The notes below the pieces were generated by a model that was not told where the DNA came from, searched no databases, and was given only the letters and a program-made list of their open reading frames with translations. 34,111 bases of DNA from Clostridia bacterium (GTDB taxonomy: Bacteria > Bacillota > Clostridia > UMGS1883), in assembly GCA_017505525.1 (NCBI GenBank), contig JAFVPB010000041.1:1-34111 (forward strand), read 5' to 3'. The position numbers were made by a program, and so were the translations under genes. Positions 25,117 to 29,530 of this stretch are shown in pieces (the stretch's first letter is position 1; each line of letters begins with the position of its first letter).

Positions 25117-25257
25117 TTGACAAACTAATAATTCTGATGTAATATAATTACGTTAGATTATTTTCCATAGACAGTAGGCACATATAAGTCCTACCGAGGA
25201 ATTTTCCTAAAACATTTACGGGATTCTTTGTGTCTATGGGCAAAGAATCCCTTTTAT
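25117..25257 (+). promoter_or_regulatory. Promoter and L10 leader attenuator of rplJL
   Basis: TTGACA at 25117-25122 with TAATAT at 25140-25145 (17-base spacer; TATAAT at 25143 is the alternative). The leader then holds CCATAGACA (25165-25173), hairpin GTAGG/CCTAC (25174-25194), and a terminator GGGATTCTTTG/CAAAGAATCCC (25220-25251) ending in TTTTATT. The terminator loop TGTCTATGG is complementary to CCATAGACA, so the closed leader and the terminator can interact. This is the arrangement of the L10 leader, bound by the L10(L12)4 complex to shut off rplJL. Confidence 0.8.
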
Positions 25258-25278
25258 TATTATTTGTGAGGTGAAAAT

Positions 25279-27285: not shown

Positions 27286-27679
27286 ATGTCCAGACCGCAA
27301 AAAGACGAAGAATGTATTAAACGTAAATAGCAAAAAATGAGGTTTTTCAAATTAATGTTGAAAAATCTCATTTTTCGATTTTTCTTTATTTTTAAGCCTT
27401 TTTGCTACGAACAAACTTCGCCTTCGCACGTCGCAAGGCTCGCTGAGGTTTAAGTTTTAATAAAACTTAAACTTACCGCTCGTTTGCTCCTTTTCCCCAT
27501 AAAGTCTTGCGACTTTCGGGGACCCCGAAAAGCAGAGGATGCTTTTTGGGGAGAAGGAAAAATAAAGCATAGTGCGAATGTTTTGCTTTTAAGCAAAACG
27601 AAGCATCGTCTGCTTTGTTTTGACGTTATACATCTTTGGCTCAGTTTGTCCGTTCTGAACTATTTTCTCTTTGCCTGCT
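27286..27679 (-). repeat. Dispersed MITE-like element, copy 4 (reverse, expanded centre)
   Basis: Reverse orientation. It starts with CCAGACCGCAAAAAGACG (a diverged CAGAACGCAAAAAGGCG box), then a GAAAAATCTCATTTTTC-type hairpin, GCTACGAACAAACTTCGCC, and at the right end GGCTCAGTTTGTCCGTTCTGAA. The centre is about 200 bases, several times longer than in the other copies, and is packed with palindromes such as TTTAAGTTTTAATAAAACTTAAA and TTTTGCTTTTAAGCAAAA. Tips are degraded. No product-encoding frame is credible. Confidence 0.7.
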
Positions 27680-27718
27680 AAAAGGGTGTGGTAAAATGAT
27701 ATTTTACCACACCCTTTT
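27680..27718 (+). terminator. Terminator following hslO and element copy 4
   Basis: An 18-bp perfect stem (AAAAGGGTGTGGTAAAAT and its complement, three-base loop) ending in TTTT. It resembles the rplL terminator, with which it shares GGGTGTGG. Confidence 0.85.
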
Positions 27719-27863
27719 GTTGCATATAAATAGAGGTTCGCAAGAACCCCAACAAATTCATTATATCATTAAATAATGGTGTTTGTAAAGGAAAAATTGC
27801 TTCGTGAAGAAAATTTCTCCCATTTAAACAAAAACTCATTTTTATCTTTTAATATAATGCCTA
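27719..27863 (+). other. Spacer before the RNA promoter, nothing coding
   Basis: AT-rich spacer with one small hairpin (GGTTC-GCAA-GAACC near 27736-27749) and no credible reading frame. Nothing else is recognised. Confidence 0.5.
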
Positions 27864-27893
27864 TTGAAAAAGGGTATTTACATATGCTACACT
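27864..27893 (+). promoter_or_regulatory. Promoter of the candidate structured RNA
   Basis: TTGAAA at 27864-27869, 18-base spacer, TACACT at 27888-27893 with a TGC extended -10. A start near 27900 is predicted, with no ribosome site and reading frame behind it. Confidence 0.6.
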
Positions 27894-27899
27894 ACAAGT

Positions 27900-28350
27900 G
27901 AGGAAAGGAAGGTACAGTCCAATGTACAAGTAAAAAACTCAAAATCTGAAAAAGGAAGGTACGGTCCGATGTACAGATGATCTAAGTTTTATATGAAGGA
28001 AAAATGAAAAGTGATTTGAACATAAAAAAGAAATCAAAAAGAAAGGCTAAAAACAAAAAAACACGACGGTGTTACGTTTAATATATAAGAATGCAAGATT
28101 AAATATAAAGTTCAAATCAGATTGAACCTTCGTAATAAAACAAGGAAATTCGTCCTGTGAAAAGAAGTGAATAGCACAAAAGTGGTTCTCCGTAGAGAAA
28201 ATAAAGAAGGTGCAAATGAACGAATAAAAGCGCGGGACAGATTAGGAAAGAGAGGATAACAAAAGATGTTAGATATCAAGAGCGTCGAGAAGTGATCATT
28301 AGCTGCGTGTAAAGAAATGCAGTTGATGATCACTTCTCTTTTTTGATTTT
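27900..28350 (+). ncRNA. Candidate structured non-coding RNA, about 450 nt
   Basis: This stretch has a promoter in front, a very strong terminator at its end and no credible gene inside. The transcript is purine-rich and carries many short hairpins. Two tandem copies of AAGGAAGGTAC-[A/G]-GTCC-[A/G]-ATGTACA (about 27905-27929 and 27953-27976) each fold as GTAC...GTAC with a GTCC loop, and the two differ at positions that keep pairing possible. Others: TTTAAT/ATTAAA (28077-28103), GTTCAA/TTGAAC (28110-28127), AGGA/TCCT (28143-28156), and GCAC/GTGC (28174-28213) enclosing TTCTC-CGTA-GAGAA. I do not recognise it as RNase P, tmRNA, 6S or SRP RNA. It could be a large ornate RNA class or a new one. 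Confidence 0.55.
28287..28350. terminator. Strong terminator of the candidate RNA, bidirectional
   Basis: GAGAAGTGATCAT (28287-28299) pairs perfectly with ATGATCACTTCTC (28326-28338); an inner CTGC/GCAG pair extends it, and TTTTTTGATTTTT follows. It also lies at the end of the leftward gene that stops at 28350. Confidence 0.88.
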
Positions 28351-28718: not shown

Positions 28719-28745
28719 GCGACTTGTGTTTACAAGTCGCTTTTT
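28719..28745. terminator. Terminator overlapping the XRE stop codon
   Basis: GCGACTTGT and ACAAGTCGC form a nine-bp stem with T-tracts on both sides. The leftward regulator gene's last codons and TAA lie inside the hairpin. Confidence 0.75.
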
Positions 28746-28936
28746 CTATACTCCGCTATATCTTCAAGTTTACAATCTAACGCATCACATAATTTATCAA
28801 GTGTTTTTGTTTCAATATTCTCATTCGCTTTAAGTCTTCGTACAGTTTTACTGTCTATTCCACACTTTTCTCTAAGAGTATAAGTAGAAAATCCTTTTAA
28901 CTCCATAGTTTTCCAGAGCTTGTCAAAAACTATCAT
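28730..28936 (-). CDS. XRE-family small helix-turn-helix regulator
   Basis: 68 residues, entirely a Cro/CI-type DNA-binding domain (HTH_26-like): LREKCGIDSKTVRRLKANENIETKTLDKLCDAL is the helix-turn-helix region. AAGGGGGA precedes ATG 28936. It is divergent from a strong promoter whose boxes lie within an inverted repeat, so it is likely a self-regulating repressor that also controls the gene to its right, now a pseudogene. Such tiny regulators are typical of accessory DNA. Confidence 0.85.
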   Translation of the reverse strand: MIVFDKLWKTMELKGFSTYTLREKCGIDSKTVRRLKANENIETKTLDKLCDALDCKLEDIAEYRKSDL

Positions 28937-29020: not shown

Positions 29021-29320
29021 ATGAAAAGTTGTACGTTTTTTTGGTCATAGATATGTTTTTGACAAAATTGAAGAGGTTTTAACGTTGCTGTTAACAAAGA
29101 TAATTATAGCATAGATTATTCTAAAAACACTTTATATCCGGAAGGGCTTGAGTCTGTGCATCCCAAATATGCTATTGTAAAACGAAATCAATGGATGATA
29201 GAAAAATCTGATTATGTTATAGTATATGTAAAGCAATCTTCTGGCAATGCTGCAAAATTTAAAGAGCTTTCTGAAAAGAAAGGGAAAATCGTAATTAATG
29301 TTGCAGATTTTATTGAGTGA
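29021..29320 (+). pseudogene. Broken SLOG/DUF1273-like gene
   Basis: ATG 29021 begins MKSCTFF and, after a frameshift in a run of seven T residues, continues GHRYVFDKIEEVL, the expected start of small SLOG-fold (DUF1273-like) proteins. The frame then stops near 29113. A second frame resumes at about 29098 and runs to TGA 29320: LYPEGLESVHPKYAIVKRNQ, WMIEKSDYVIVYV and NAAKFKELSEKKGKIVIN, which match the family's C-terminal half. The Rossmann-like middle (about 40-50 residues) is missing. SLOG proteins sense or make nucleotide ligands, often in defence or toxin settings. It has a perfect promoter and GGAG ribosome site, so it decayed recently. Confidence 0.72.
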
Positions 29321-29357: not shown

Positions 29358-29530
29358 TTTAGCTAAATTTTGCACTATTGTGCAAAGCGAAATTATTGCT
29401 TCGCAATAGCTAAATTGTTTTTCAAAACAGCTAAATTAAATTCGCTATTAGCGTGCGTAGCACATTTAGCTGCCGCAGGCAATTTAGCTGAGCTTGCTCA
29501 ATTTAGCTCGCATTAGCGAATTTAGCTAAA
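29358..29530 (+). repeat. Array of ATTTAGCT words separating mini-hairpins
   Basis: The octamer ATTTAGCT or its complement AGCTAAAT occurs about seven times. Between the words are minute hairpins with different arms: TTTGCAC/GTGCAAA, ATTGC/GCAAT, GTTTT/AAAAC, CGCTA/TAGCG, GCC/GGC, GAGC/GCTC and CGC/GCG. It lies between the broken SLOG gene and the tRNA-Gln terminator. I know of no standard class for it. Confidence 0.6.

Follow-up and report, generated by a model that had tools for sequence, protein, structure and literature searches.

The locus and its homologues

The window, i.e., the whole analysed stretch of 34,111 nucleotides, contains between positions 27888 and 28350 a region that was read with its surroundings, folded, compared with Rfam 15 and searched for in the genomes of relatives. 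As read from the sequence, it holds an RNA gene of about 450 bases on the plus strand, running from a promoter at 27864-27893 to a terminator ending near 28344. There is also an 82-residue ORF ending at 28350 and an XRE-like gene (28730-28936), both on the minus strand, and a SLOG-like remnant on the plus strand (about 29156-29320). These names come from sequence inspection, and the three neighbours are those already listed in an earlier sequence-only reading of this DNA. Many TTTAGCT / AGCTAAATT units, which look like a degenerate repeat, lie between the SLOG remnant and a tRNA-Gln gene (29360-29530), and an L10 leader (RF00557, 47.2 bits; 25147-25265) precedes rplJ, as expected.

The promoter (TTGAAA-18-TACACT) carries a TG before its -10 hexamer. 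This extended -10 had been proposed from the sequence, and the alignment of homologues bears it out, showing a TTGAAA-like -35 hexamer, a spacing of 17-18 and a TG-extended -10. The conservation reaches about 190 bp upstream at near-constant spacing across loci. A conserved block in this part, TTTCTCCCATTTAAACAAAAA (27814-27834, plus strand), keeps a near-constant spacing to the promoter and is possibly a regulator site; the pattern used to search for a regulon with this block was too strict, and even the known site was not recovered. On the minus strand, a divergent promoter-like site, TTTACA-18-TATAAT (27760-27789; 11/12 match), precedes the first ORF of the element (ORF1, see below) by about 200 bp; 31 of 33 loci have a match to it, with the -35 hexamer usually 193-211 bp from ORF1. 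In the window this site is followed by a short hairpin (27750-27733), and in at least 11 loci a hairpin resembling a terminator lies no more than about 90 nt from the divergent promoter (window region 27678-27789, minus strand). A tiny divergent RNA may exist beside the element. The divergent promoter is kept near consensus and at a near-fixed distance, yet it has no conserved product.

Thirty-four homologous loci from several families of Clostridia were read, most of them derived from MAGs. BLAST gave matches in 12 other genomes, the best parts being the 3' 105 nt and the 5' 45 nt. An alignment (A1) of the 3' part served to build a covariance model (R1), and genome scans with this model detected the element in 10 of the 28 order-level genomes, in 9 of the 16 genomes of one family and in 19 of 391 genomes drawn from the class; among 398 genomes drawn from the phylum, it was found only in the window's own genome. 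The named homologue records are uncultured MAGs, several of them from goat and roe deer gut, and the distribution, as far as these scans describe it, is that of scattered uncultured gut Clostridia. The element is mostly single-copy, with one per genome in most genomes.

At the level of known families, the region gave nothing at or above the gathering score of any Rfam 15 model, and the matches that appeared at E up to 10 were at chance level. The element was likewise unmatched in 20 homologous loci; in the window and these loci together, the matches were limited to tRNAs, an L10 leader, Gut-1 and c-di-GMP-I, all outside the element. It is described nowhere in the literature searched. The reading of the stretch as a free-standing RNA gene with its own promoter and terminator, new to Rfam, is supported by these comparisons of sequence. 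The proposal of a new structured RNA is upheld by the homologues, by the covariation described below and by the lack of a Rfam match above threshold.

A size of a few hundred nucleotides and an occurrence in gut Clostridia would suit one of the large RNA families already known (ROOL, GOLLD, raiA, OLE, HEARO, 6S or tmRNA), and the sequence-only reading had named ROOL and GOLLD as the closest idea. This explanation is very improbable, since neither the window nor the homologous loci gave a gathering-score match and no plausible one appeared at E up to 10. The element resembles ROOL, GOLLD, raiA and OLE in being stand-alone, several hundred nucleotides long, endowed with covarying helices and orphan in function; it differs from them in lacking a Rfam match and in being built around tiny ORFs. 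ROOL and GOLLD occur in phages or mobile elements, and their covariance models did not match the window. No homologue of the element was found in the collections searched, which comprised viral contigs (by exact patterns) as well as phages and plasmids (by blastn), and a phage or plasmid origin was rejected on these zero matches.

The tRNA-like domain and tag frame of tmRNA (RF00023) were not matched in the element either, and a tmRNA gene of its own exists in most of the relatives tested (18 of 20 comparison genomes). Neither the window's genome nor one other genome (G235) has a tmRNA above the family cut-off. For the genome of the window an assembly gap is the probable reason, and a role of the element as a tmRNA replacement was discarded.

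Translation units at both ends of the transcript

The sequence-only reading had described the transcript as free of reading frames and had taken two tandem GGTAC hairpins, differing by supposedly pairing-preserving changes, as a sign of selection on structure. It is partly supported overall: the new structured RNA holds, and the hairpin evidence and the ORF-free reading do not. The 5' end carries two ribosome-binding sites, each followed by a three-codon ORF, and a 9-codon ORF occupies 28266-28295; all are conserved in homologues. The first unit (27904-27933, plus strand) consists of the Shine-Dalgarno sequence AAAGGAAGG and the ORF ATG TAC AAG TAA (MYK; 27922-27933). The second (27951-27980, plus strand) repeats AAAGGAAGG before ATG TAC AGA TGA (MYR; 27969-27980).

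Over 33 loci, the first unit has the approximate consensus GAAAGGAAGGTACASTCCA-ATG-NNN-NNN-stop. The ATG is found in 33/33 loci and a stop at codon 4 in 32/33; a stop at codon 3 appears in three loci, i.e., L069, which is the only one without the codon-4 stop, and two that have both. Conservation in these 33 loci is high in the Shine-Dalgarno sequence and the ATG, falls to 48-79% in codons 2-3, rises to 91-100% at the stop and is low beyond it. The tripeptides differ between loci (MRK, MRI, MRN, MKL, MKI, MEK, MYK, MFR and others), so that what is conserved is a ribosome start followed by a near-immediate stop. Since the peptide of the first ORF is not conserved, the act of translation rather than its product seems to be selected, and, as codons 2-3 are not conserved, the unit has no specific stall sequence. 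The number of units also varies, from one to three, with two in the window and in L028 and three in L010. In a pattern search of six genomes, perfect mini-ORF units were found at the element only.

On this comparative evidence, the tandem GGTAC hairpins are ribosome-binding sites with three-codon ORFs. Between the two copies in the window, the first purine change replaces A-U by a G-U pair and the second falls in the loop, so that nothing is compensatory. A GTAC/GTAC hairpin can form only with TAC as codon 2, which is the case in 7 of 33 loci; pairing is thus usually impossible, the hairpins were dismissed as a conserved structure, and the earlier evidence for selection on them fails.

Every comparative sign points to translation of the 3' end as well. 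The Shine-Dalgarno sequence GAAAGAGAGG and ORF2, which runs from an ATG at 28266 to a TGA ending at 28295 and encodes MLDIKSVEK, occupy 28246-28295 (plus strand). The ORF2 frame is present in 34/34 loci, with 9-10 codons, a MLDIKSEQK-like sequence, ATG, GTG or TTG as start and TGA, TAA or TAG as stop. Relative to the consensus, its codon changes comprise 27 synonymous and 43 non-synonymous ones, single-base changes offering 10 and 62, respectively, which is a rough sign of purifying selection. These features could be those of a very small protein gene, in which ORF2 (M-LDIK-SEQK) is the product and the upstream part its regulatory leader, an explanation backed by the universal frame, by a lysine that every locus has four codons ahead of the last sense codon and by the excess of synonymous changes. 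We regard it as improbable: the product would have only 9-10 residues, its last residues vary (EQK, VEK, HRK, QWE, NRK) and are bound to terminator pairing, and two loci read SEPKNEQK and AEPKSEEN.

The last codons and the stop of ORF2 lie within the 5' arm of the intrinsic terminator (28287-28344, plus strand). The terminator is strong and confirms that of the sequence-only reading, which had given it a 13-bp stem and a long T-tract; the stem is in fact longer, with 22 predicted pairs at about 28287-28338, and the T run that follows (CTTTTTT) is short. The ORF2 stop lies inside the stem base in the aligned loci, and those loci of alignment A1 whose stop is TAA instead of TGA have GGTTA instead of GGTCA in the opposite arm. 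The stop and the opposite arm change jointly, so that both the frame and the stem are preserved.

An ORF whose stop lies in a terminator stem is the layout of leader-peptide attenuators, and ribosomes on ORF2 might keep the terminator from forming, so that transcription would continue into the next gene. That the element is a cis leader of this kind is quite improbable, because the gene that follows varies from locus to locus and, in the window, L002, L011, L066, L069, L070 and L076, lies on the opposite strand or is a convergent tRNA gene. On either side of the element, the loci have unrelated neighbouring genes in varying orientations; the window and several of the other loci have a convergent gene next to the element, and no conserved target or downstream gene was found among the loci compared. 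As a general rule, a cis leader was therefore rejected.

A tRNA-Pro gene immediately follows the element in five loci (L002, L033, L036, L065 and L066). Three of these genes are co-directional with it and two are convergent, and they possibly mark an ancestral site common to these loci or a hot spot for insertion. In L065, a Gut-1 RNA (RF01706, 72.6 bits; 1813-1887) is found shortly downstream of the element and the tRNA-Pro gene.

The folded core

Between the translation units the RNA is predicted to fold into a core, whose helices were assigned on the plus strand from swap controls and pair probabilities. An outer helix P1 (strands at about 27986-27999 and 28127-28141) encloses helix P2, formed by TGATTTGAAC (28012-28021) and GTTCAAATCA (28110-28119). 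Inside lies the core motif ACACGACGGTGTTACGTTTAATATA (28061-28085), with an ACAC/GTGT hairpin; its loop, ACG, is able to pair with the CGT at 28075-28077. Helix P4, formed by GTCCTGTG (28152-28159) and CGCGGGAC (28231-28238), encloses hairpin D (TTCTC-CGTA-GAGAA; 28186-28199). When the window is folded alone, P2, P4, hairpin D, the terminator and outer P1 have pair probabilities near 1. The folding energy is far below that of shuffled sequences (z -7.3), a large share of it coming from the terminator.

Covariation was judged by simple swap and pair-count controls on the homologues rather than by R-scape. The P1/P2 duplexes have a mean energy of -28.1 kcal/mol with their own partners versus -17.0 kcal/mol with swapped ones (sd 0.96), and 0 of 5000 permutations were as good; this control ignores relatedness, but kinship between loci is expected to improve the fit of swapped partners rather than to impair it. 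The core motif, ACACGRCGGTGT..ACGY, takes one of two forms without exception: 12 loci combine R = A with Y = T, and 11 combine R = G with Y = C. Both pair types (A-U and G-C) are present within the window's own genus, so that the change occurred more than once. Paired cells amount to 100% in the core-pair helix and to 96.6% in the structure, compared with 9.9-71.9% for slid versions. The ACAC/GTGT hairpin shows only one both-sided change, and together with the core pair it is proposed as a candidate small pseudoknot. P4, just upstream of the second Shine-Dalgarno sequence, also covaries (0 of 5000 swaps), its segments and those of hairpin D having been taken by hand with flanking motifs as anchors, in a register that is our own choice. 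The helices supported by evolution are thus P1, P2, the RCG/CGY core pair, P4, hairpin D and the terminator, and not the GGTAC hairpins. By these comparative tests, the folded core is real and conserved by compensatory changes.

The core is nevertheless dispensable in some lineages. L010, a short form, has three mini-ORFs as well as ORF2 and the terminator but no core motif, and L030, which keeps ORF1 and ORF2, also lacks it. The short forms retain the promoter, mini-ORFs, ORF2 and terminator, so that these make up the irreducible set. That this set persists without the core argues that translation is central, and it follows that P1 cannot be the readout in those lineages.

Two further ORFs inside the core of the window sequence are not conserved in the homologues. 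A 25-codon lysine-rich ORF (28004-28081), MKSDLNIKKKSKRKAKNKKTRRCYV followed by a stop, was considered as a conserved mid-element ORF and rejected, its frame not being preserved in homologues. An extra three-codon ORF, ATG AAC GAA TAA (28216-28227), follows AAGAAGGTGCAA and is equally unconserved.

A possible reporter of ribosome state

The presence of ORFs of three and of nine to ten codons, each driven by a ribosome-binding site, suggests that the RNA is probably not purely non-coding and may report the state of the ribosome through the occupancy of ORF1. This is our preferred reading, to which we assign a probability of roughly 0.4. P1 starts a median of 5 nt past the ORF1 stop, and in the window at about the same distance counted from the second unit. 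Given the size of the ribosome footprint, a ribosome on ORF1 would cover the first P1 pairs. We propose that a ribosome would initiate on the three-codon ORF and be held there by an inhibitor of the first peptide bonds, by slow termination or by slow recycling. Because P1 begins a few nucleotides after the ORF1 stop, the held ribosome would cover its first bases and P1/P2 would be unable to form fully; a freely terminating ribosome would allow them to form. The two folds might leave the second ribosome-binding site accessible to different degrees or give the RNA a different stability, and the output could be a target in trans, the short peptide or the level of the RNA itself. Three observations weigh against this reading: the variable codons 2-3, which offer no particular stalling signal, the short forms that do without the core, and the absence of a conserved target or downstream gene among the loci.

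The main rival to the ribosome-state reporter is a trans-acting structured RNA whose ORFs only stabilise the transcript. Ribosomes bound at the first Shine-Dalgarno sequence, which is a strong one, would block a 5' exonuclease, the immediate stop would spare the core, and ORF2 would act likewise at the 3' end. The position of this Shine-Dalgarno sequence, about ten nt past the -10 element, its resemblance to an extended anti-Shine-Dalgarno complement and the retention of the stop while codons 2-3 vary agree with such end protection. We hold it to be unlikely, since it leaves unexplained the purifying selection on ORF2 residues, the tandem mini-ORF copies and the short forms that have ORFs without the core.

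The reporter reading draws on a known sensing principle. Three-codon upstream ORFs act as ribosome sensors in the leaders of ABCF genes, with MRI/M in cplR, MIN in vmlR and MKL/Q, a prediction, in vmlR2 (PMC10201436, PMC9226507). The element shares with these ARE-ABCF leaders a Shine-Dalgarno sequence and a three-codon ORF in a short 5' leader, then hairpins and an intrinsic terminator (PMC10201436, PMC9226507), and its tripeptides (MRK, MRI, MKL, MYK and others) can be set against their MRI, MIN and MKL/Q. It differs in being free-standing, without a constant downstream gene, in its covarying core, in having a 9-10-codon second ORF that runs into the terminator and in carrying up to three tandem mini-ORFs. 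The same-strand ABCF gene that directly follows such leaders is not found here, the next gene being convergent in the window and unrelated elsewhere. The sensing step would be the same as in ABCF leaders, here in a stand-alone RNA with the core fold or the use of ORF2 as output.

Whether three-codon ORFs serve here as the sensor of a free-standing RNA acting in trans, i.e., as a general gauge of translation status and the first such device, is doubtful. Three-codon ORFs have been described as sensors of antibiotics ahead of resistance genes; in this element they are conserved beside a covarying core, in several families of Clostridia and with no gene to control. If the proposed mechanism holds, the cell would have a new way to measure ribosome function. 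Whatever its mechanism, the element represents an RNA family that Rfam lacks, recognisable by a sharp and testable signature, and it indicates that RNAs called non-coding can be built around minimal translation units invisible to annotation tools. Dual-function small RNAs such as SR1 and RNAIII are regulatory RNAs that also hold a short ORF. The element shares this feature with them and differs by a first ORF of three codons whose peptide is not conserved.
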